From Pyrobaculum oguniense TE7 (lineage in GTDB: Archaea > Thermoproteota > Thermoprotei > Thermoproteales > Thermoproteaceae): 64,000 nt of DNA. This document shows positions 2,169-33,008 of the stretch, piece after piece; position 1 is the first letter of the stretch; every line of letters starts with the position of its first letter. The position numbers were made by a program, and so were the translations under genes. Location of the stretch: assembly GCA_000247545.1 (NCBI GenBank), contig CP003316.1, positions 839,233-903,232 on the forward strand. The letters run 5' to 3'. The notes below the pieces were generated by a model. The model was not told the origin of the DNA, ran no database searches, and saw nothing but the letters and a program-made list of their open reading frames with translations.

Positions 2169-3407
2169 ATGTCCGCACCCCCGGGACTGCCGTCCCCCGA
2201 TGAATTGTTAAAAAAAGCCGAGGAATATTTAAAAGAGCTTGAAAAGGGGCCGTGGCCCAGCCACGTGGCTGAAATGAGAAAAACGGGCTATCCTTTACAT
2301 GTATATGGCGTAGGCCTCGTGGCAAGGAAAAGCCCATGGGGTCCCAGCGTTGTGAAGACAAAGCGCCTAACCGGCGTCTTGGCTAGGATAGCCCGCGACT
2401 GGGTGCCAGGAGGAGGCGAAGAAGTACATTTTAGAGTATTTAACACCCCGGGTAAGTTCTATCCCACGGACTATTTAAGAAAGCTAATTAAGATCTCTAG
2501 AGAATTGGGAATCGGCCTTATAGAAGCAGTGGGACAGACGGGAGCAATTGTAATAAATGTAAAGGGAAAAGACGTGGCAGATAAAATGATAGATGCCTTA
2601 CGCGAAATTGGAACAGATGTGGGAGGTAGCGGCGACGCAATTAGAGAACTAAACGCCTGCGTGGGGCCTGCTCTTTGCGAATTCGCCCTATATGATACAC
2701 TGCACTGGTTTGTAGAATTTAGAAAAGATAAGAGAATTCACGACGCAATTACAGTACCTGGCTTACCATACAAGTTCAAGATCAAGTTTTCAGGTTGCCC
2801 AATGGACTGTGCAAGAGCTAATAGGGCAGACCTAGGCTTTATCGGCGTCTGGAAGGGCGCGCCGGAGGTAGACCAAGAACTACTAAGAAAGAAAATTGAA
2901 AATAAAGAAGTAGATGTCCACGAACTAGTAGCTGGGTGCCCGGCCAAAGCTATAACTTGGGATGAGACAAAGAAAGAACTCATCATAGACGGTTCTCGCT
3001 GTAAGAAAAGTATGAATTGTATAAGAAAGGCGTTTCCAGCTATAAAACCTGGAAAAGAAAGGAGAGTGGCCGTGGTTGTAGGCGGTGGATCGAAGGGACG
3101 TTACGGTCCAAAGCTTGGGTGGTTCATAGGCTACTTAAAACCTGACGAGGTTAAAAAAGCTATTGACTTGACTTTCAAAGTAATAGAACCTTGGGATAAA
3201 GAAGCACCCGCAAAGAATAGACTTGGCGATTATATCCTCATGGAGGGGCTTTATAAATTTATTGAAAAGGCAGGCATCGACTTAGAAGATACACCTAGGA
3301 TAATTGAAAAGCTTCCAGATAATGTGCCCTATAGAGTGTTGCCAGAAGAAGAAAGAAAGAAATATGCAGACTTTGCAGAAAAAATTAAACAGGTGGTAAA
3401 AGTATGA
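2169..3407 (+). CDS. dsrA: Dissimilatory sulfite reductase alpha subunit, copy 1
   Basis: 412 residues, normal DsrA length. The siroheme-4Fe-4S binding cysteines are Cys164/Cys170 (CVGPALC) and Cys210/Cys214 (CPMDC), and the basic stretch KFKIKF before the second pair supplies substrate-binding lysines in this family. An inserted ferredoxin domain follows (about 250-292), but it keeps only Cys257, Cys278 and Cys284: the position that is normally CX2C reads CKKSMNC, with Ser instead of Cys. DsrAB carries out the six-electron reduction of sulfite, delivering a trisulfide to DsrC. The stop overlaps dsrB1 (ATGA). The codons are visibly AT-richer than in copies 2 and 3. Confidence 0.95.
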   Translation: MSAPPGLPSPDELLKKAEEYLKELEKGPWPSHVAEMRKTGYPLHVYGVGLVARKSPWGPSVVKTKRLTGVLARIARDWVPGGGEEVHFRVFNTPGKFYPTDYLRKLIKISRELGIGLIEAVGQTGAIVINVKGKDVADKMIDALREIGTDVGGSGDAIRELNACVGPALCEFALYDTLHWFVEFRKDKRIHDAITVPGLPYKFKIKFSGCPMDCARANRADLGFIGVWKGAPEVDQELLRKKIENKEVDVHELVAGCPAKAITWDETKKELIIDGSRCKKSMNCIRKAFPAIKPGKERRVAVVVGGGSKGRYGPKLGWFIGYLKPDEVKKAIDLTFKVIEPWDKEAPAKNRLGDYILMEGLYKFIEKAGIDLEDTPRIIEKLPDNVPYRVLPEEERKKYADFAEKIKQVVKV

Positions 3408-4537
3408 GTATCCAGCTCTCATACCCTGTAGAAGTAGAGAAGTATCTGCCAGAAATAATTAAGAAAAACTACGGCAAGTGGGTTGAGAGAAAATTCCACG
3501 GGCCGGGAATCATTGAACACGTCTCTGAAACAGGCGATAGGGTATTTACCATCAAAGTTGCCTTGCCGCCTAATGCAAGAGTCAGTGCAGATACTTTAGA
3601 AAAATTTGCAGATCTTGCAGATAAGTACGGAGTAGGGGCTTTGCGCATCACCATGGCAGGCAACGTAGAATTCATCACAACTTCACTAGAAAACGCCCTA
3701 AAAATAAAAGAAGAGCTAGAAAAACTAGGCTTCCCAGTAGGCGGCTGGGGCGGGGCTCTGTGGGGAATAAACACTTGTACAGCTTTCTTAACATGTCAAA
3801 TTGCCGTAGTAGACGCCGTAAGCATAGGCAAGGCGATAGGAGATGCCTTAAAGCCGTACTTCACGGGAGAAATTCCACTCCCAGCTAAACTAAGAATATT
3901 CATCTCCGGCTGTCCCTCGGGTTGTGCAGGTGGCATAGCAACAGACATCGCTATTGTAGGCATGTGGGGCGCACCGCCGAGGATTAGAGAAGAAGTGCTT
4001 CCCATGTGCATGCCGCCCCCCAAGGCCCTGGCTAAGATACCTGAAAGCCAAATATTCCTAGTCCAAGTCTGTCCCACCGGCGCCTTGACGCTTAGGAGGG
4101 AGGGAGACAAAATAAAGCTGACATTGATAGGAGAGAAGTGTATAAACTGTGGTAGGTGTAAAGACAATTGCGATGCCTTTGACTATGATCCAAAAGACGT
4201 GGGAGTTGCAATACTCGTAGGTGGGAGAATGTCAAACACAGGCACAGGCCCCAGACTTGCGAGAAACCTTGTTCCCTGGATTCCTGCAAACCCGCCTAGA
4301 TATGAGGAAATAGTGGCTATTGTAAAACACGTCGTAGAGATATGGCGCCAAAATGCAAAACCGGGTGAAAGACTGGGAGACTTCATAGAAAGAATAGGCT
4401 GGCCTAAGTTCTTAGAAATGGTAGGAGTTCCCAAACTCGCCGCAGAATACATGTGGATGCCTGACGCGGCTAGGACTTACTTACTCTACAGGGCACGTGG
4501 CGAGGTAATCTTCAAAGGATTTAGAGATGCAGTTTAG
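3404..4537 (+). CDS. dsrB: Dissimilatory sulfite reductase beta subunit, copy 1
   Basis: 377 residues. Siroheme/cluster cysteines are at Cys125/Cys131 (CTAFLTC) and Cys170/Cys174 (CPSGC), and the ferredoxin domain has a full set (Cys223, Cys246, Cys249, Cys252, Cys256). It forms the alpha2beta2 sulfite reductase with DsrA1 and holds the catalytic siroheme in this family. Translation is coupled to dsrA1 by a 4-nt overlap. The 3' end overlaps the next small gene by 11 nt, an arrangement close to that at the other two dsrB copies. Confidence 0.95.
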   Translation: MSIQLSYPVEVEKYLPEIIKKNYGKWVERKFHGPGIIEHVSETGDRVFTIKVALPPNARVSADTLEKFADLADKYGVGALRITMAGNVEFITTSLENALKIKEELEKLGFPVGGWGGALWGINTCTAFLTCQIAVVDAVSIGKAIGDALKPYFTGEIPLPAKLRIFISGCPSGCAGGIATDIAIVGMWGAPPRIREEVLPMCMPPPKALAKIPESQIFLVQVCPTGALTLRREGDKIKLTLIGEKCINCGRCKDNCDAFDYDPKDVGVAILVGGRMSNTGTGPRLARNLVPWIPANPPRYEEIVAIVKHVVEIWRQNAKPGERLGDFIERIGWPKFLEMVGVPKLAAEYMWMPDAARTYLLYRARGEVIFKGFRDAV

Positions 4538-4970
4538 GACAATCCCGCCTAAAACGCTTAATTTTTTTCTAACATATCAAACCGAAGAGGAATCTTATTT
4601 TTTCATACCTGAATATAACCTGTACGTATTTTCTAAATTATATAAAAATGAGTATAATCTTGCATTTGTTTTAAACAAAAAAATTAAAGTTGATAAATTT
4701 TGTAAAGACATTGAAGAAAAATCTAGTGTATTATTAAAGAAAAAAGACATACCATGGAGGGGTTTTGAAACAGATTTTCTACTTACACTTACGCCCATAG
4801 ACTGTGAGAAGAACATTGTAGTCCCAACTTTAAAAGTTAACATTAACTCAGGGGACACAATCTTCCACTGGGATCAAATTGCTAAAATTATTTTTTCAGA
4901 TGAATTATTCAACTATCTTGAATGGATAAAAGAAAAATATGGAATTAACTATGAAATACTTGATACTTAA
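4527..4970 (+). CDS. Small dsrAB-linked protein of unknown function, copy 1
   Basis: 147 residues, no recognised domain. The segment IPWRGFETDFLLTLTPIDCE aligns with VPWPGYTTKFAFSVYPIGCE of the 159-residue product directly behind dsrB2 (19456-19935), including one cysteine, and both are followed by a strand-like KVNIN/KVNT stretch and an acidic helical tail. A more remote relative sits behind dsrB3. The gene overlaps dsrB1 by 11 nt, so it is almost certainly cotranslated. It is not DsrD, which is a shorter winged-helix protein. An assembly, electron-transfer or regulatory partner of DsrAB is an inference from position only. Very AT-rich. Confidence 0.75.
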   Translation: MQFRTIPPKTLNFFLTYQTEEESYFFIPEYNLYVFSKLYKNEYNLAFVLNKKIKVDKFCKDIEEKSSVLLKKKDIPWRGFETDFLLTLTPIDCEKNIVVPTLKVNINSGDTIFHWDQIAKIIFSDELFNYLEWIKEKYGINYEILDT

Positions 4971-5013: not shown

Positions 5014-5349
5014 ATGCCAGCAAAATGTCCAGGCGAGTACACAGTAGATGGAACTACAGTAGTACTAGACGAAGAGTGTTTTATGCAAAACCCCGAGGCG
5101 TGGAATGAAAAAATTGCCGAATGGCTAGCAAGAGAACTTGAAGGAATTCAACAAATGACAGAGGCACATTGGAAAGTAGTTAAGTACTTAAGAGAGTATT
5201 GGGAAACCTACGGCGTTTGTCCACCAATCAAAATGTTACTTAAAGAAACTGGATTTACATTAGAGCAGATATACCAGCTCTTCCCCTCGGGACCTGCAAA
5301 TGGGGCATGTAAAGTGGCAGGCGCTCCGAAACCCACAGGCTGTGTTTAA
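5014..5349 (+). CDS. dsrC: DsrC sulfur carrier, copy 1
   Basis: 111 residues of the DsrC/TusE family. The flexible C-terminal arm ends GACKVAGAPKPTGCV, giving the two conserved cysteines Cys99 and Cys110, exactly ten residues apart with the last one penultimate. This is the signature of a true DsrC able to form the intramolecular trisulfide, not a TusE-only homologue. It shuttles the sulfur product from DsrAB to the DsrMK membrane complex. Nearly the same protein is encoded at 18649-18984, with the arm almost identical. A TATA-like AT stretch (AAAAATTATAATC) precedes the start by about 20 nt. Confidence 0.95.
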   Translation: MPAKCPGEYTVDGTTVVLDEECFMQNPEAWNEKIAEWLARELEGIQQMTEAHWKVVKYLREYWETYGVCPPIKMLLKETGFTLEQIYQLFPSGPANGACKVAGAPKPTGCV

Positions 5350-9859: not shown

Positions 9860-10655
9860 CTATTGTTTAATAGATAGGTAAGCGCCGACCATTGCGAGAG
9901 TCATTCCAAGTAGTTGTGCCTCTGTAGCCAGCTCGTGCAGGAGTATTGTGGAGTTGATTTAAGGTGTATACTGGCATGAAGGGGAGGGCAGACGGCGCGT
10001 GGGGCCCCCCTTTGCCATTGCCAAGTTCCAGATAGTGTAAGCCAAGACTCCCGGCACGAGCGAGATGTTTGCCAAGGCGGCTAGCTTCTCTACGGACATT
10101 AGGGTTTGGAAGTGGGCCGCGACGCCGAGGAGGGCCAGCATAACCGCGCTGGCAGGCTAATCCAAGCTCAAGCCTCTGCTGGGGCGTAGGACGAGTATAT
10201 GCGCCTCACGTAGATTGTATATAATTCCCACGATGTAGTCGTTGCGAGGGCTTGGGCGGTGCCTGCAAGCGAGTTGCCCTGTATGTAGGGTTGCAGTATA
10301 AAATACGCCCCCGCGGCGGAGAGGGCGCCGCCGAGAGCTACGACGGGGGGAGGCCGCCTTTTAGATGACAGAGCTGTAAGCGCGCCAGTTAGGGGGGATC
10401 CGAGTACTAAGAATAAGGAGGCGGCGGTTGGGGACATGTAGTTAAGGGAGGTGTATAAAGCCACGTTGAAGAGGGCTACTCCCAACAGCCCAGCAGCGCC
10501 TATTTCAAGCGCCTATCCGCGAAACTTTGCAAACTTGACCGAGGCGAATACCGCCGGCGTATTGATGGCAAATCTAGCCGCCGATATTGCCAACGGATCA
10601 GCGCCGCCTAGCGCAAGAAATCTACCGGCCACGCAATTGTTACTCAAAGCAACCC
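9860..10655 (-). pseudogene. Decayed EamA-type (drug/metabolite) transporter gene
   Basis: Reverse-strand translation gives consecutive EamA-family pieces in different frames: CVAGRFLALGG and SAARFAINTPAVFASVKFAKFRG (to about 10513), MSPTAASLFLVLGSPLTG and YFILQPYIQGNS (10168-10485), ISLVPGVLAYTIWNLAMAKGGP (9959-10141) and the proper C-terminus LHELATEAQLLGM-TLAMVGAYLSIKQ ending in TAG at 9860-9862. At least three frameshifts or stops separate them, so no intact product can be made. The N-terminus is joined directly to the broken YeiH-type gene. Confidence 0.75.
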
Positions 10656-11570
10656 CCACGTAGCGGGTGACTATTTCAGCAGACGCCGTGGCGGCCCCGT
10701 CGGTCTTAACAGAGAGGCCCATCCACGCCCCCGCGGCGGCAGGGCTCATTATCCCTGCCTTAACCAGCCACTGCGCCACGTACGGCAAGATGATGAGCTC
10801 AACCGCCGCGTATATCAGGATTGCAGCTGACACCATTGTGGGGTAAATAGCGGGGCCCCAACGGCGCCGGCCGTTGCGATAGACGCCGACACGCCGCACA
10901 CGCCTATGCCTACGGAAGCCACGACGCTTAGATCGGTATTCTTGGCGCAGAGCCTGAACACGGGGAATGCCAAGAGCATAAACACTGGGAAGGACATAAG
11001 CACCATGACGAGAACAGAGCCTCCGTATCTAATCCAGTCTGTGAAGAGGATCTTGGCGCCTAGGGGCACAATTGCCGTTTTTATAAACCACTCCCCCCTC
11101 GCCGATCAGTGCAACCCCTGAGGCACCTTGGGCAAATTGCCCATGAGCATCCCAAGGAGGAGGGCTAGGGTGAAGGCAAATTCTGTGGTCACAACGTCGG
11201 CTATGGGCTTATACCCGACGATAAATGCGGAAAGCCACCACAACTATCAAATTACAGAAAAGCCCTTGGCCCAGTCGCTCGGCTTAACACCGATTAGCTT
11301 TGCGGGGCCCATCAGAAGGAGCATTAAGACAACCCATGCAACTATGATATTTACCCACGGGCTCCCGAATGCAAGCTTTGGGTTCGGCACCGCGAAGGCC
11401 TTTGCCGGATCAGTCCACTTAGTCCACATCGGAACCCACCCCAGATAGTCGGCGTAGGCCCAAAACCCTACAAAAGCGTAGAAGAACAGCGCTAGGCCGA
11501 GCCAAAGAGCCCACCAATCCTCTTTTCTATATAAAGAACTCTAATCAATCTTGGGAGAAGCTTTTGTCAT
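10655..11570 (-). pseudogene. Decayed YeiH-type putative sulfate exporter gene
   Basis: From ATG (11568-11570) the frame reads MTKASPKID, a TAG stop, then SSLYRKEDWWALWLGLALFFYAF. It continues with EFAFTLALLLGMLMGNLPKVPQGLH, a TGA stop at about 11110, then SARGEWFIKTAIVPLGAKILF and VGIGVCGVSASIATAGAVGAP. A frameshift near 10870 leads to YPTMVSAAILIYAAVEL and AGAWMGLSVKTDGAA, after which the gene is cut where the EamA remnant begins. The order and motifs match YeiH/UPF0324 proteins. A related gene whose visible end is intact enters the window at 1-231. Confidence 0.8.
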
Positions 11571-16509: not shown

Positions 16510-16947
16510 TTAATATACTTTACCCACAGCGGTCTGGTCTAACAGCGCGGCATGCCACCTCATTAGTACGTCCACAGCCTTTTTGAAAACCTCTATATTC
16601 AAATCGACTTTGCATATACACCTTATGCTGGCCCCCTCGTTTTCCACCAAGTAGACACCGTCGCGCCCAACAGCCGCCAGTAAGGCGTAGTCGCCAAGCG
16701 CTATGTATTCCACATACGGCGGAGCTAGCATTGAGGTCTTTTTCTCAACGCATTGGGGATTAGCCGTTACCCTAAGCGCATCTGCTAAGTCCTGGGCCCT
16801 CACACATTTGCCGCCACTGGATATAAAGTCTCCTGAGATGTATAATCCGTCCCACAATACCAGCTCATGGTCGACGCGGCAAGCTCCTCCCTGTTGCCTT
16901 ATATACTGCTTGAGCAGGTGGAAAAAATCGGGAAGGTTAATTGACAT
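16510..16947 (-). CDS. Protein of unknown function downstream of a dsr regulator
   Basis: 145 residues, no recognised domain. Cysteines are at GGACRV, GGKCVRA, PQCVEK and IRCICKV, the last a CXC pair. A helical N-terminus (FFHLLKQYIRQQGG) precedes strand-rich sequence. It begins 3 nt after the stop of the winged-helix regulator, so the two are almost surely one operon and might form a sensor pair; that is inference. Confidence 0.65.
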   Translation of the reverse strand: MSINLPDFFHLLKQYIRQQGGACRVDHELVLWDGLYISGDFISSGGKCVRAQDLADALRVTANPQCVEKKTSMLAPPYVEYIALGDYALLAAVGRDGVYLVENEGASIRCICKVDLNIEVFKKAVDVLMRWHAALLDQTAVGKVY

Positions 16948-18648: not shown

Positions 18649-18984
18649 CTAGACGCAACCGGTGGGCTTGGGGGCGCCGGCTACTTTACAAGCGCCGTGC
18701 GCTGGGCCGGAGGGGAACAGCTGGTATATCTTCTCCAAGCTAAACCCCGTCTCCTTAACGACCATCTTAATCGGGGGGCAAGAGCCGTAGGTCTCCCAGT
18801 ACTCTCTTAGGTACCTAACAAGCTTCCAGTGCTCCTCTGTCATCTGCTGTATACCCTCTAGCTCCCTGGCCATCCACTCGGCGACTTTCTCATCCCAATC
18901 CTCCGTGTTTTGCATGAAGCAGTCTTCGTCTAGAACTACCTTTTTGCCGTCTACTGTATATTCACCGGGACATTTTACCGGCAT
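18649..18984 (-). CDS. dsrC: DsrC sulfur carrier, copy 2
   Basis: 111 residues, nearly the same as the copy at 5014-5349, with both C-terminal cysteines at 99 and 110 (GACKVAGAPKPTGCV). Strong protein conservation despite very different base composition indicates that both are under selection. It carries the trisulfide product of DsrAB. It is read with dsrM2 and is divergent from dsrE; the 120-bp region between dsrC2 and dsrE holds candidate palindromic operators. Confidence 0.95.
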   Translation of the reverse strand: MPVKCPGEYTVDGKKVVLDEDCFMQNTEDWDEKVAEWMARELEGIQQMTEEHWKLVRYLREYWETYGSCPPIKMVVKETGFSLEKIYQLFPSGPAHGACKVAGAPKPTGCV

Positions 18985-19104: not shown

Positions 19105-19455
19105 ATGGCCGACAAGGTGGCGTTCCTCGCCACGATGCCGCCGGCGGATGCGCCAAGGATATCCACAATGCTGGGCTACGCCCTCGCCGCAGCGTCGATG
19201 GGCTTCGAAGTGTTGATATTCTGGACCCTCGACGGGGCCCACGTAGTGAAGAAGAAGGTATTTGAAAAGCTAGATCCACAGATAAGGGAGAGGTTCAAGC
19301 AATGTCTCGACATGGGGTGCAAAATGTGGCTCTGCTCCTCGGCGGCCGCCACCTTCAACATAAAGGAAGACGAAGTGGTGGACGGGGTCAAGATAATGGG
19401 CATCGCCTCCTTCTACGAATTCGCCAGCGAGGCTAAAATAACGCTGACTTGGTAG
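19105..19455 (+). CDS. DsrE-family protein next to dsrC2
   Basis: 116 residues. DsrE/DsrF-like fold: an N-terminal strand KVAFLATM, a helix with TMLGYALAAASMG, strand EVLIFWTLDG, and C-terminal GIASFYEFA. Three cysteines lie in CLDMGCKMWLC, a spacing typical of persulfide-carrying DsrE-like proteins. It probably moves sulfane sulfur with TusA and DsrC in the cytoplasm. It is transcribed divergently from dsrC2 and converges on the small dsrAB-linked gene with no gap. Confidence 0.75.
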   Translation: MADKVAFLATMPPADAPRISTMLGYALAAASMGFEVLIFWTLDGAHVVKKKVFEKLDPQIRERFKQCLDMGCKMWLCSSAAATFNIKEDEVVDGVKIMGIASFYEFASEAKITLTW

Positions 19456-19935
19456 CTACACCACTTCGACGGCGTCGACAACCCTAATTTTTCTATTAAG
19501 TTCCTGGAGGTACTCCTCAGTCCTGTCCCTGAGGAGAGAGTAGGCCACCGCGCCCCAGTTAAAGAATAACTTCTCCGATGTGGTGTTTATCTTCACCGCC
19601 ACGAAGCCGTAGGCGTGGCCACCCTCGCAGCCGATGGGGTAGACCGAAAAGGCGAATTTCGTGGTGTACCCAGGCCAGGGCACGTCGTCGGCCTCCGCCC
19701 AGAGGGTGGAGTCCTCCTCGAGCGCTTCGCAAGACTCGGCGGCGAGAAGGACCCTCTTCCGGAGGTCTAAAAAGCCGAGTCTCACCCCGTTGCTATCTTC
19801 CTCGAAGGCCATCAGGAGCATTAAATCCCTCACGAAGTAGACCCCGGGCTCTCCATATGCCAAGACGTAGGGTATCTGGCGGGAAAAAATAGGGTTCTGC
19901 GACTCGGCCCAGTTGAGGAACTCTTCGAAGTTCAC
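19456..19935 (-). CDS. Small dsrAB-linked protein of unknown function, copy 2
   Basis: 159 residues from a GTG that overlaps the dsrB2 stop (GTGA). It shares VPWPGYTTKF and YPIGCE with copy 1 at 4527, and LGFLDL and EALEEDS with copy 3 at 32523 (LAFLDL, EALEEAS), so copy 2 bridges two copies that hardly resemble each other. No known domain. Translational coupling to dsrB in each case argues for a role tied to the sulfite reductase itself. Confidence 0.8.
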   Translation of the reverse strand: MNFEEFLNWAESQNPIFSRQIPYVLAYGEPGVYFVRDLMLLMAFEEDSNGVRLGFLDLRKRVLLAAESCEALEEDSTLWAEADDVPWPGYTTKFAFSVYPIGCEGGHAYGFVAVKINTTSEKLFFNWGAVAYSLLRDRTEEYLQELNRKIRVVDAVEVV

Positions 19936-21089
19936 AAGGCGTCCCTAAGCCTCTTGTATACGTCGCCGCGGCCTCTAAACGCCAGGAACGTCCTCGCGAA
20001 TTCTGGCACCCGCTGGTAGTAGTCGTGCACCTCTTTCAAGCCCACCATCTCCAAGAACTTAGACCATCCAACTCTGTCTATGAAGTCGGCTAGTCTCTCG
20101 CCGGGTTTGGCGTTTTGCCTCCACACCTCGACGACGTGTTTAACAACCGCCACGATCTCCTCGTACTTAGGCGGTATTGCAGGGAGCCACGGTACTAGCA
20201 CTCTGGCAAGCCTAGGCCCGGATCCCGTGTTGGAGAGCTTGCCACCCACCAATATCGCCACACCGACGTTTTCGGGGTCGTAGTCGAAGGCGTCGCAGTT
20301 CTCCTTGCAACGGGCACAGTTAATGCACTTCTCACCGATGAGGGTAAGCTTCACCTTGTCGCCCTCCCTTCGCAAAGTGAGCGCGCCGGTGGGGCATACC
20401 TGGACGAGGAATATCTGCGTCTCGGGGATCTTAGCTAAAGCCTTCGGCGGCGGTAGGCACATGCCAATTACCTCCTCCCTGATCTTCGGCGGGGCGCCCC
20501 ACTGCCCCACAATGGCGATGTCGATGGCTGTGCCGCCGGCGCACATCGAGGGACAGCCGGATACGAATATCCTAAGCTTCGCTGGGAGGGCCTCCTCCTT
20601 GAAGTAGGGCGCCAAGGCGTCGCCTAGGGCCTTGGAGATGGAGGGCGAGTCCACCACCGCAGTTGTGCAGGTCAGATAAGCCGTGCACGAGTTGATGCCC
20701 CACAGGGAGCGGCCCCAGCCGCCTACTGGGAAGCCCATCTTCTCCACTTCCTCCTTAATCTTAAGCGCCTTGTCGAGGGAGTCCGTGAGGATCTCCAGGT
20801 TTCCGGCCATGGTGACCCGCACAGCCCCGATGCCCAAGCTGTCGGCGATGTCGGCGAATTTGTCCAACGTTTCTGCACTTATCCTCGCGTTCGGCGGCAT
20901 ACCCACCTTTACTGTAAATATCCTGTCCCCCGTCGCCGATATGTGCTCAATTATGCCATTGCCGTGGAACTTGCGATCAACCCATTGGCCATAGTTCTTC
21001 AACACCCTCTCGGGCAAGAACTTCTCCAAGTCGACTGGGAATACCTTCTGCAACCTAGCGGCCTTGGGGTTCATGGATGCCGCCGTCAT
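19932..21089 (-). CDS. dsrB: Dissimilatory sulfite reductase beta subunit, copy 2
   Basis: 385 residues; an internal ATG at 21074 would give a protein six residues shorter. Siroheme/cluster cysteines CTAYLTC and CPSMC, and ferredoxin-domain CPTGAL...CINCARCKENC, are complete. Closely colinear with dsrB1, with the longest identical runs in the second half. Parts of the first half are almost identical in DNA to dsrB3 (around the GIIEHIS and DKALKIKEE motifs). Coupled to dsrA2 by ATGA. Confidence 0.95.
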   Translation of the reverse strand: MTAASMNPKAARLQKVFPVDLEKFLPERVLKNYGQWVDRKFHGNGIIEHISATGDRIFTVKVGMPPNARISAETLDKFADIADSLGIGAVRVTMAGNLEILTDSLDKALKIKEEVEKMGFPVGGWGRSLWGINSCTAYLTCTTAVVDSPSISKALGDALAPYFKEEALPAKLRIFVSGCPSMCAGGTAIDIAIVGQWGAPPKIREEVIGMCLPPPKALAKIPETQIFLVQVCPTGALTLRREGDKVKLTLIGEKCINCARCKENCDAFDYDPENVGVAILVGGKLSNTGSGPRLARVLVPWLPAIPPKYEEIVAVVKHVVEVWRQNAKPGERLADFIDRVGWSKFLEMVGLKEVHDYYQRVPEFARTFLAFRGRGDVYKRLRDAL

Positions 21090-22318
21090 ACCCTCCCCTT
21101 AAGTTGCTGTGCAAATGAGAGAAACCTCTCCCGAACCTCCTTGGGCAATACGGCGTACGGCACCTCATCGGGCATCTTGGCTGTAGACACTGGCATGCCC
21201 TCAAGCTTTATGCCAGCCTTCTCGATAAACTTGTCCAGCCCCAAATGCATGATGTAGTCGCCGAGGCGGTACTTGGGTTGCGCCTCCGCCTCCCACGGGC
21301 CAATTACCTTAAACGTCAGGTCGATCGCGTCCTTCACCTGGTCAGGCTCTAGGTAGCCGATGAACCACCCCAGCTTCGGCCCGAAGCGCCCCTTCGACCC
21401 GCCGCCCACCACCACTGCAACCTTCCTCTTCTTCCCCGGCTTTATTGCTGGGAAGGCGGCTCTTATGCAGTGCATTGATTTTTTGCACCTCGTGCCGTCT
21501 ATTCTCAGCTCTTTCTTCTCCTTGTCCCAAGTTATGGCGCCGCTTGGGCAGTTGGCGGCCAGCTTCTCCGGGTCCACCTCCCCAGCCTCGATCTTCTTCC
21601 CAAGAAGCTCTTGATCCACCTCCGGAGCCCCCTCCCAAACACCGATAAAGCCTATGTCCCCCCTCTGGGCGCGGGCGCAGTCGAGGGGGCAACCGGAGAA
21701 CTTTACCTTGAACTTATAGGGGTAGCTGGGAGTTACGATGTTGTCGTTCACTCTCTTGTCTTTGTAGAACTCTGCGTACCACTTCAACGTGTCGTATAGG
21801 GCGAACTCGCAGAGGGCAGGCCCCACGCATGCATTTAAGGCGCGGATGGCGTCGCCGCTACCGCCGACGTCTGTGCCGATTTCGCGAAGAGCGTCGACCA
21901 TTGCCTCGGCAGTTTCGGGCGTGAGGTTGAGGACTAAGGCCCCGGTCTGTCCAACGAGTTCAATCAGGCCCACGCCTAGCTCCCTTGATATCTTGGTGAT
22001 CTTCCTGAGGAAGTCTGTGCGGAGGAACTTACCCGGTGTGTGGAAGACGCGGAAGTGCACCTCCGAGCCGCCGCCCGGGACCCAGTCCCTGGCCCACCTC
22101 GAAAGGACGCCGGTGTTGAGGAACTCGACCTTAACCGCGGCTGGGCCCCATGGGGACTTTCTCGCCACTAGGCCTACGCCGTACACGTGGAGCGGATAGC
22201 GGGTTTTCCTCAGCTCAGATACATGGCTCGGCCACGGCCCCCCCTCTAGTTGCTTCAAAATCTCCTCAGCCCTGTTCAACAGCTCCTCTTTTGGGGGGAG
22301 ATTAGCCGGAGCTGACAT
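21086..22318 (-). CDS. dsrA: Dissimilatory sulfite reductase alpha subunit, copy 2
   Basis: 410 residues, colinear with dsrA1 (shared DWVPGGG, CVGPALC, YKFKVKFSGCPLDC). As in copy 1 the inserted ferredoxin domain lacks one of its usual cysteines: CKKSMHC where CX2CX2C is expected. The segment encoding that domain (21429-21652) is base-for-base identical to part of dsrA3. The GC-rich composition matches the surrounding chromosome, so this is probably the resident copy. Confidence 0.95.
   Translation of the reverse strand: MSAPANLPPKEELLNRAEEILKQLEGGPWPSHVSELRKTRYPLHVYGVGLVARKSPWGPAAVKVEFLNTGVLSRWARDWVPGGGSEVHFRVFHTPGKFLRTDFLRKITKISRELGVGLIELVGQTGALVLNLTPETAEAMVDALREIGTDVGGSGDAIRALNACVGPALCEFALYDTLKWYAEFYKDKRVNDNIVTPSYPYKFKVKFSGCPLDCARAQRGDIGFIGVWEGAPEVDQELLGKKIEAGEVDPEKLAANCPSGAITWDKEKKELRIDGTRCKKSMHCIRAAFPAIKPGKKRKVAVVVGGGSKGRFGPKLGWFIGYLEPDQVKDAIDLTFKVIGPWEAEAQPKYRLGDYIMHLGLDKFIEKAGIKLEGMPVSTAKMPDEVPYAVLPKEVRERFLSFAQQLKGRV
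21429..21652 (-). repeat. 224-bp tract identical to 30825-31048 (inverted)
   Basis: Compared base by base, this stretch of dsrA2 equals 30825-31048 of dsrA3 on the opposite strand, with no mismatch over 224 bp. It spans the code from GFIGVWEG to AIKPGKK and covers the whole inserted ferredoxin domain. Just outside, the two genes differ in both DNA and protein. The pattern is that of a recent gene-conversion event. Confidence 0.93.
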
Positions 22319-30158: not shown

Positions 30159-31409
30159 ATGGAGGTTAAGCAACAAAGGCCCCTAACTGTGGAGGAATGG
30201 GCCGCCGAGGGGATGGAGTTGCTTAAGTACTACGAAAAAGGGCCTTGGCCTAGCCACGTCTCCGAGCTGAAGAAGACCAAGTACCCCATAGAGGCCTACG
30301 CGGCGGGGCTGGCGGCCCGGAAGACCATGTGGGCGGCGGGCTCTGCGAAAATTAGGTACGTCTACACCGGCTTTATAGCTAGGCGCACCCGCGACGGCAA
30401 GATCTCGGAGCTCCACTTCCGCGTCTGGCAGCCCTCCGGCTATCTCTACACCACGGAGAAGTTGAGAAAGCTCATCGAGTTCGCAGAAAAGTACGGCCTC
30501 GGCTTGATAGAGCTCGCTGGCCAGCAGGGCATGATGATTATCAGCGTTAGGCCCGAGGTGGCCGACGAGGCGGTTGACTACTTACGGGACGTGGTGGGCA
30601 CCGACGTAGGGGCCACCGGCGATACTATTAGGGAGATAGCCGCCTGCGTCGGGCCTGCCCTATGCGAATACGCACTGTACGACACGCTTGAGGCGAGGGA
30701 CAAATTCCTCACCCACCCCAAGATATACGAGTGGATGAGCAACCAGCTCTTTCCGTTTAAGTTCAAGGCCAAGTTCTCCGGCTGCCCCTTCGACTGCACT
30801 AGGGCCGTCCACCGCGCCGACTTCGGCTTTATCGGTGTTTGGGAGGGGGCTCCGGAGGTGGATCAAGAGCTTCTTGGGAAGAAGATCGAGGCTGGGGAGG
30901 TGGACCCGGAGAAGCTGGCCGCCAACTGCCCAAGCGGCGCCATAACTTGGGACAAGGAGAAGAAAGAGCTGAGAATAGACGGCACGAGGTGCAAAAAATC
31001 AATGCACTGCATAAGAGCCGCCTTCCCAGCAATAAAGCCGGGGAAGAATAGAAAAATTGCAATTGTCGTGGGGGGCCACGTAAAGGGGAGATTCGGCGGC
31101 AAGATGGGCAAGCCTCTAGCTGTCGTGAACTCGGTGGAGGAGGCCATGGACTGGGTGGTGAAGACGGTGGAGAGCTGGATGGAGCACATGGAGAAGGGCG
31201 TGGTGAAGCACAAGGACCGCATAGGCGACTTCATCATGAAGGTCGGCTTCAAGAAGTACGTCAACGAGATACTGGGTCTAAAGGAGGTGGGCAAGTCTTC
31301 TCTCCATCCGTCGCTTAGGGCCGGCGCAGTCCTCGACGACGAGGAGCGGAAGATGTACGCCGCCTGGGCCTCGAAGATAGTGGAGGAGGTCTTCGGCGGG
31401 AGGGCATGA
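30159..31409 (+). CDS. Dissimilatory sulfite reductase alpha subunit, divergent copy 3
   Basis: 416 residues. Cys163/Cys169 (CVGPALC) and Cys209/Cys213 (CPFDC) for the siroheme cluster are kept, as is the FKFKAKF lysine stretch. It departs from copies 1 and 2 over the first 130 residues; most clearly the DWVPGGG loop before the HFRV motif is replaced by a shorter DGKISEL. The ferredoxin insert again lacks one cysteine and is identical in DNA to that of copy 2. Such a paralogue may differ in substrate or in partner. Coupled to dsrB3 by ATGA. Confidence 0.88.
   Translation: MEVKQQRPLTVEEWAAEGMELLKYYEKGPWPSHVSELKKTKYPIEAYAAGLAARKTMWAAGSAKIRYVYTGFIARRTRDGKISELHFRVWQPSGYLYTTEKLRKLIEFAEKYGLGLIELAGQQGMMIISVRPEVADEAVDYLRDVVGTDVGATGDTIREIAACVGPALCEYALYDTLEARDKFLTHPKIYEWMSNQLFPFKFKAKFSGCPFDCTRAVHRADFGFIGVWEGAPEVDQELLGKKIEAGEVDPEKLAANCPSGAITWDKEKKELRIDGTRCKKSMHCIRAAFPAIKPGKNRKIAIVVGGHVKGRFGGKMGKPLAVVNSVEEAMDWVVKTVESWMEHMEKGVVKHKDRIGDFIMKVGFKKYVNEILGLKEVGKSSLHPSLRAGAVLDDEERKMYAAWASKIVEEVFGGRA
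30825..31048 (+). repeat. 224-bp tract identical to 21429-21652 (inverted)
   Basis: The dsrA3 half of the identical pair. Identity starts at GGCTTTATCGG and ends after CCGGGGAAGAA, where dsrA3 continues ATAGA and dsrA2 GAGGA. Outside the tract the genes are clearly diverged. The two copies are 9 kb apart in inverted orientation, so recombination between them would invert the interval. Confidence 0.93.
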
Positions 31410-32521
31410 CGGCTGATAAAGTTGCCGAGAGGCTGAAGAAGAAGCTCCCGGTGCCGTACATCGAGTGGTTGCCGGAGAAGGTAAGGCGGAATGTTGGTAA
31501 GTGGGTAGATCGTAAATACCACGGCTACGGCATAATTGAGCACATATCGGCGTCGGGGGACAGGATATTTACAGTAAAGGTAGGCACGCCGCCGAATTTC
31601 AGACTATCGACCGACACGCTGAAGAGGTTCGTGGACATAGCCGACACCCTCGGCATAGGCGGCATAAAAATTACGAGAAACGGCAATCTCGAAATCCTCA
31701 CCGACTCCCTTGACAAGGCGCTTAAGATTAAGGAGGAGGTGGAGAAGATGGGGTTCCCAGTAGGCGGCTGGGGGCCTACGCTGTGGTCTGTTAATTCATG
31801 TACAGCCTTCTTGACGTGTACCACAGCTGTGGTGGACGCGCCATCTATTACTAAGGTGCTGTACGATCACCTAAAGCCCTACTTCACCGGCGAGGTGAAG
31901 CTTCCGGCTAAGCTTAGGATAAACGTGTCTGGTTGTCCTAGCGCTTGTGGGGGATTCACCACGGACATAAACATCGTCGGCCACTACGGCGACGCCCCCA
32001 CCTACGATCCCGAGAAGGTCAAGCTGTGTCTGCCAAAAAGCGCAAAGGCGCTTGAGATGGGCCACGTGCCAGAGGTTGCAGAGGTCTGCCCCACGGGCGC
32101 CATTAAGGTCTTCGGCAAGCCGGACGGCACCGTGGGCCTGGAGGTGATTAGGCCTAAGTGCATTGCCTGCGGCCGTTGCCGCGATGTGTGCGACTGGATA
32201 GACTTCGACCAGTCCAAGGCCGGAGTGGCGATACTAATCGGCGGCAAGGCCAGCAACACCGGAAAAGGGCCGTTGCCTTCTATACAAGTCATACCGTGGA
32301 TACCCGCCATACCTCCCGACTACAAGGAGATAGTTGCGGTGGTTAAGAAGATTATTGACGTATGGAGAGAAAACGCAAGGGAGGGGGAGCGCATCGGCGA
32401 CTGGGTCGCCAGAATAGGCATGGAGCAGTTCTACAAGATGCTGAACATACCTGTGACTAAGTGGAACAAGCCCGTTGCGCTGACCGGCGAGTTCGGCATA
32501 AGGCAGTTCGGCCCGATTTAG
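31406..32521 (+). CDS. Dissimilatory sulfite reductase beta subunit, divergent copy 3
   Basis: 371 residues. Siroheme/cluster cysteines CTAFLTC and CPSAC and ferredoxin-domain CPTGAI...CIACGRCRDVC are all kept, so it should bind its cofactors. The second half diverges from copies 1 and 2 (for example GHYGDAPTYDPEKVKLCLPKS) while the first half has short DNA stretches almost identical to dsrB2. The stop is followed after 1 nt by the third small dsrAB-linked gene. Confidence 0.88.
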   Translation: MTADKVAERLKKKLPVPYIEWLPEKVRRNVGKWVDRKYHGYGIIEHISASGDRIFTVKVGTPPNFRLSTDTLKRFVDIADTLGIGGIKITRNGNLEILTDSLDKALKIKEEVEKMGFPVGGWGPTLWSVNSCTAFLTCTTAVVDAPSITKVLYDHLKPYFTGEVKLPAKLRINVSGCPSACGGFTTDINIVGHYGDAPTYDPEKVKLCLPKSAKALEMGHVPEVAEVCPTGAIKVFGKPDGTVGLEVIRPKCIACGRCRDVCDWIDFDQSKAGVAILIGGKASNTGKGPLPSIQVIPWIPAIPPDYKEIVAVVKKIIDVWRENAREGERIGDWVARIGMEQFYKMLNIPVTKWNKPVALTGEFGIRQFGPI

Positions 32522-32522
32522 C

Positions 32523-33008
32523 GTGAGCGTATACGACGTAATCGGCGACCTTCTTTTAAAGCTCCGTTTTAGATACCAAGTTGAGGAGGTGGAGGACGCC
32601 TCTGAGCTCGCTGGGTTGATAAAAGAACAGGTGGAGGGAGAAGAGAAGACGTATATCTACTCCCCGCCGGGCAGACCTAGGCCGTACCTAGTATCTACAA
32701 TGCGCCGCGGAGAGGACGTGGCCTTGGCTTTTCTTGACCTCGACGAGGTGAGGGAGGTCAAATACGGGGGCGACGCCGAGGCGCTTGAGGAGGCCTCACT
32801 AGTTATCCCAGAAGAAGGCGTGGCGCCTTTTCTCTTTCCGTTGAAAAAATCCGACGACGTGGTCTACGCCGCTTTGGGGTTCAAAACGGTAGTCAACGCC
32901 TCGTTGCTCACTGGGGGTTTTCTGGAATCTCTTCTGGAGGATTTTGAGCAAAACAGCGACTATTACTTCTCCCTAGTTAAGAACAAACTGGAGAAAGGCG
33001 AAAACTGA
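32523..33008 (+). CDS. Small dsrAB-linked protein of unknown function, copy 3
   Basis: 161 residues from a GTG one base after the dsrB3 stop. It is the most divergent of the three small proteins behind dsrB genes. Resemblance to copy 2 is limited to YLVST/YFVRD, ALAFLDLDE/RLGFLDLRK and EALEEAS/EALEEDS, in the same order. It has no cysteine. Its position, size and this partial alignment support one family with fast evolution. Confidence 0.7.
   Translation: MSVYDVIGDLLLKLRFRYQVEEVEDASELAGLIKEQVEGEEKTYIYSPPGRPRPYLVSTMRRGEDVALAFLDLDEVREVKYGGDAEALEEASLVIPEEGVAPFLFPLKKSDDVVYAALGFKTVVNASLLTGGFLESLLEDFEQNSDYYFSLVKNKLEKGEN

Follow-up and report, generated by a model that had tools for sequence, protein, structure and literature searches.

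A small protein family encoded behind dsrB in Thermoproteaceae as a probable non-catalytic partner of the sulfite reductase DsrAB

The 64,000-nucleotide stretch of Pyrobaculum oguniense TE7 DNA analyzed here (positions 839,233-903,232 of the chromosome, hereafter the window) contains three dsrAB pairs, each of which is followed by a gene for a small protein. We called these proteins X1, X2 and X3, and they are best read as paralogues in a single family (the DsrG family), whose members are small and for the most part acidic, evolve fast, and probably have no catalytic role. Judged from its linkage to dsrB, this family is best explained as a non-catalytic partner of DsrAB, either an assembly chaperone or a modulator akin to DsrD. 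The P. oguniense TE7 assembly comprises 2,452,920 bases, with a chromosome of 2,436,033 bases and an element of 16,887 bases (PMC3558965). The organism respires with sulfur compounds and oxygen.

The first-pass annotation had placed the three genes directly behind, or overlapping with, dsrB1, dsrB2 and dsrB3, and all three open reading frames (ORFs) are found precisely there (Table 1). The X1 and X2 genes overlap the stops of dsrB1 and dsrB2 by 11 nt and 4 nt, respectively, and the X3 gene starts 1 nt past the dsrB3 stop. When the whole 2.45 Mb P. oguniense genome was searched with a combined family profile, X1, X2 and X3 were matched and no other gene was. The three-fold coupling of X to dsrB is real and goes beyond chance. 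Elsewhere in the window, dsrA2 and dsrA3, which otherwise differ strongly, have 224 identical bases in common (21429-21652 and 30825-31048, respectively), likely as a result of recent gene conversion, and positions 16510-16947 encode a 145-aa protein without a Pfam match, which several Pyrobaculum genomes have next to dsr and HTH genes.

Table 1. Genes of the X family and their dsr neighbors in the window.
Feature	Coordinates	Strand	Remarks
dsrA1	2169..3407	+	
dsrB1	3404..4537	+	
X1 (DsrG type)	4527..4970	+	147 aa; sits between dsrB1 and dsrC1
dsrC1	5014..5349	+	
dsrC2	18649..18984	-	PF04358, 1.5e-33
DsrE-like gene	19105..19455	+	convergent with X2; PF02635, 2.1e-22
X2	19456..19935	-	159 aa; GTG start; behind dsrB2
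dsrB2	19932..21089	-	
dsrA2	21086..22318	-	
dsrA3	30159..31409	+	
dsrB3	31406..32521	+	
X3	32523..33008	+	161 aa; GTG start; behind dsrB3

The motifs by which the three proteins had originally been grouped are present as claimed: X1 and X2 have WRGFET/WPGYTT and PIDCE/PIGCE in common, and X2 and X3 have FLDL and EALEEDS/EALEEAS. X1 and X2 are 26% identical across 133 aa in BLASTP (E 2e-14; 7e-11 in a whole-genome search). The pairwise match of X2 to X3 is not significant alone (E 0.022), and pairwise BLAST detected no similarity between X1 and X3, which is what would be expected if three unrelated small ORFs happened to lie behind dsrB. We compared profiles derived from P. oguniense and other genomes, namely an alignment of 13 X1/X2 proteins (A1) and another of 15 X3 proteins (A2), using HHalign with a null of 300 column shuffles per direction plus reversed profiles. 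A2 against A1 scored 41.3 (P 4e-6), compared with a maximum of 20.5 for shuffles in that direction, and the reverse comparison scored 30.7 (P 3e-4); shuffles in either direction did not exceed 21.3 and averaged ~12, the reversed profiles reached ~21, and the best true control among 25 families from the same loci also scored ~21. Considering this score, the equal element order of two separate structural models (see below), and the retention of the position in many genomes, a chance juxtaposition of unrelated ORFs deserves hardly any credence. An additional HHalign likeness of X3 to the flavocytochrome-c-like (FCC) family was rejected, because it was due to one ORF of genome G061 in which X3 runs into the FCC gene across an assembly gap; the seeming X3-flavocytochrome fusion at this locus (L103) is a run of X, and no fusion exists.

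X1, X2 and X3 match no Pfam family at the cut-off (scanned to E 10) and no NCBIfam model, and a comparison with PHROGs produced no convincing match for the family. Matches to Pfam 'Sigma70 region 1.1' occur in four proteins of the X3 alignment, the best with 1.6e-4. The profile match on the one hand and the missing Pfam and NCBIfam models on the other bear out the earlier propositions that the three proteins form one family and that no known domain fits them.

AlphaFold2 models of X2 and X3, which were built separately, have pLDDT values of 93.8 and 93.4, respectively, and display the same succession of elements: a helix, a short strand, a helix, three strands of which the third is long, a short helix, two long strands, and a C-terminal helix. 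Compared to X3, the X2 model carries an extra strand ahead of the last strand pair and another at the C-terminus. Three unrelated folds, named at the outset as an outcome that would speak against the family, were not what the models of X2 and X3 revealed. X2 is homologous to X1 by BLASTP, and X3 is homologous to X1/X2 by the profile match and by the element order that its model has in common with that of X2, even though pairwise BLAST alone fails for X3. Foldseek searches of the PDB with the X2 and X3 models returned nothing at E <= 1e-3 (the best E is 9e-3, and TM-scores are low). Among the insignificant matches of top probability are 1xkp_B, a type III secretion chaperone (0.60), and 1tyq_D, an Arp2/3 subunit (0.63), both of which are protein-binding alpha/beta sandwiches (SCOP d.198).

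As no Cys or His is conserved across the family in alignments A1 and A2, an enzymatic or sulfur-carrier role for X is unlikely; X3 proteins contain 0-1 Cys, and three X1 proteins contain none. The pI is 4.2-4.5 for X3 and 4.5-6.2 for nearly all X1/X2 proteins (7.7 for one truncated copy), in contrast to the basic DsrA and DsrB (8.3-9.4). This contrast provides weak support for an X-DsrAB pairing, because the DsrAB proteins of lineages that have no X are likewise basic (pI 8.2-8.8).

One member of the family already has a name. The Thermoproteus tenax genome paper lists dsrABCGK as TTX_1185-1188 and TTX_1191, in which A, B, C and G are four consecutive tags (PMC3189178). X1 is the sole gene between dsrB and dsrC at locus L086, and the same order is found at locus L079. 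We take these loci to be those of T. tenax and P. islandicum, respectively. Since X1 alone stands between dsrB and dsrC in T. tenax, X1 is dsrG. A literature text search for dsrG in connection with Pyrobaculum returned nothing. Molitor et al., in 1998, reportedly used the name dsrG in P. islandicum as well and are said to have suggested a similarity to glutathione S-transferases. The glutathione-S-transferase-like enzyme to which that report would point is very improbable: none of the 28 aligned members has a matching Pfam domain (E up to 1), the element order does not contain a thioredoxin-like beta-alpha-beta core, no such transferase is found among the fold matches listed, and no catalytic residue is conserved. 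The gene position of dsrG was already known, whereas the family, its paralogues and its probable role are not described in the literature that we found.

The occurrence of the family beside dsrB was examined in other genomes. A scan of genome contigs with a DsrB profile matched only three MAGs; the X1/X2 profile A1 is too variable for such a scan. In Thermoproteaceae, 20 of the 21 intact dsrB genes have a family member directly behind them, usually with overlapping stop and start, so that the absence of such homologues from other Thermoproteales, which would have spoken against the first-pass annotation, was not observed. X1 or X2 follows all 14 genes of the dsrB1/dsrB2 type, X3 follows six of the seven genes of the dsrB3 type, and dsrC is often the next gene after X. 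Imperfect copies account for two of the 20. One is an X2 on the minus strand of locus L074 (about 10345-10815; genome G063, presumably P. aerophilum IM2) with a single in-frame TAA in a frame that is otherwise open and conserved, and the other is an X1 of G069 with a frameshift-like N-terminus. Either copy may reflect an error in the sequence or true decay, which for the X2 would be a recent nonsense mutation. Across 19 Thermoproteaceae genomes, a member is present in 12 of the 12 with dsrB and in one of the seven without it (Fisher p 2.6e-4, with the relatedness of the genomes ignored).

The linkage has limits. Genome G072 has dsrAB3 and no X3, and no family member is detectable for deep dsrAB lineages, namely those of family f23 and of genera g5-g7, which are of the Caldivirga type. 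X is therefore dispensable for DsrAB as such, and the scope of a crenarchaeal sulfite reductase factor, as originally proposed, was too broad. The X3 of Vulcanisaeta-type genomes is found upstream of dsrA, at a distance of 0.7-3 kb, where it adjoins dsrM and sometimes an FCC-like gene. The place directly behind dsrB is occupied in these genomes by a different gene, located at L092:12020-12946 and at the corresponding position in L093, L094, L095, L098 and L099. This gene lies 69-91 bases from dsrB; its product is 304-311 aa long in most cases and 223 aa in L098, and the one product that was tested has no Pfam match.

The X3 branch in particular might belong to a wider sulfur-handling module consisting of a flavocytochrome-c/sulfide-quinone-reductase-like flavoprotein, DUF1641 and TusA/DsrE, its place behind dsrB3 being one arrangement of that module. 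Genome G078, which is probably that of Thermoproteus uzoniensis, has an X3 (61% to T. tenax X3) behind FCC-like and DUF1641 genes and has no dsrAB. In three Vulcanisaeta-type genomes (G051, G053 and G062), an FCC-like gene comes directly after X3 and before dsrA, and two of the three have DUF1641 right behind it. X1 and X2, however, are always behind dsrB, as is X3 in six Thermoproteaceae genomes, in several of which the FCC and DUF1641 genes are located elsewhere, and the X3-FCC fusion of G061 is merely an assembly gap. A module of this kind is thus an improbable explanation. The persistence of X3 without dsrAB in G078 nevertheless weakens a strict dedication to DsrAB for the X3 branch. Of the idea of a dedicated sulfite reductase factor, then, the conserved linkage stands, and exclusiveness is not secure for the X3 branch, given G078 and the upstream position of X3 in Vulcanisaeta.

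The divergence of X parallels that of DsrB. Distances between X proteins correlate with those between the linked DsrB proteins (r 0.87, 22 pairs; none of 5000 permutations was as high), and the correlation is retained inside the groups (0.88 for X1/X2 and 0.90 for X3). The dN/dS ratio is 0.08-0.30 for X and 0.015-0.067 for dsrB; X is under purifying selection yet changes faster than dsrB. Where dsr genes decay, X also decays or disappears. In G071 (L083, G071:C1 about 1158700-1159100), a dsrB2 remnant is followed by an X2 remnant. P. oguniense itself has a broken fourth dsr locus outside the window (G000:C1:819740-821332, L091), in which dsrB and dsrC each have an in-frame TAA and are separated by ~120 nt, and dsrA and X are absent. 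The C-termini of DsrB also differ by type: those of the X1/X2 type carry a tail of the form R-T-[FY]...R...[LF]-R-D, and those of the X3 type have no tail and end in F-G-[IV]-R-Q-F. As far as can be judged from sequence, the tail of the X1/X2-type DsrB is a candidate contact site for X.

The explanation that we find best, to which we assign a probability of roughly 0.5, is that each paralogue binds its own DsrAB as a dedicated assembly chaperone. Each X would be co-produced with its DsrAB and would then bind it, most likely on DsrB and during or shortly after translation, and this binding might keep the subunits in a state in which sirohaem/[4Fe-4S] can be loaded and the DsrA2B2 tetramer can assemble. 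Binding to DsrB or DsrAB fits the common operon, the start of X right behind dsrB, and the parallel divergence of the two proteins.

The closest alternative to the chaperone is a lasting regulatory subunit, in which X stands in for DsrD, acting on assembled DsrAB to raise turnover or to couple the enzyme to DsrC. DsrD is a small winged helix protein of about 80 aa. X fills the dsrD slot behind dsrB, often ahead of dsrC, and dsrD is consistently absent from early-branching archaea (PMC10591310). According to work cited in the same paper, DsrD is an allosteric activator (PMC10591310). X proteins, however, have no DsrD Pfam match, either among the three from the window (scanned to E 10) or among the full set of aligned members (scanned to E 1), their alpha/beta models are unlike a small winged helix, and DsrAB of the Caldivirga type manages without any X. 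The original statement that these proteins are not DsrD thus holds, and a substitute for DsrD, while worth considering, is on the unlikely side. Two observations lead us to favor the chaperone over the lasting modulator: other functional DsrAB lineages have no X, and X evolves fast. A slight further argument is that a secretion chaperone is among the weak structural matches.

We tentatively suggest, as a possibility, that a class of DsrAB-binding proteins separate from DsrD, with a fold unseen in solved structures, arose in Thermoproteaceae and Vulcanisaeta. Its genes would have been duplicated along with dsrAB, giving each isoenzyme a private partner matched to the different C-terminal tails of DsrB. 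As an energy enzyme, DsrAB is very old, and its Thermoproteales versions branch near the root and lack DsrD (PMC10504309, PMC10591310). A partner family duplicated along with dsrAB provides a concrete, testable protein in a lineage that has up to three isoenzymes, and what was a bare name, dsrG, now has a family with defined limits, a structural prediction and a role that can be tested.

Among known systems, the nearest is dsrG of T. tenax: X1 is this gene itself, directly behind dsrB and before dsrC, and X2 is its homologue. The papers that we found do not contain the paralogues X2 and X3 that follow the other dsrAB pairs, their common ancestry, the predicted fold, or the family limits. DsrD resembles X in being a small protein that is encoded right behind dsrAB, and acts on DsrAB as X would, and differs in that X has no sequence similarity to it, has alpha/beta models (159 and 161 aa), and occurs in other organisms. 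The sulfur carriers DsrC, TusA and DsrE have a conserved sulfur-binding cysteine, a feature that X does not share. The d.198 sandwiches are, like X, small and acidic, and their alpha-beta3-alpha-beta2-alpha order is that of the X3 model and, with one extra strand, of the X2 model, although the structural match is not significant and the cellular setting differs.
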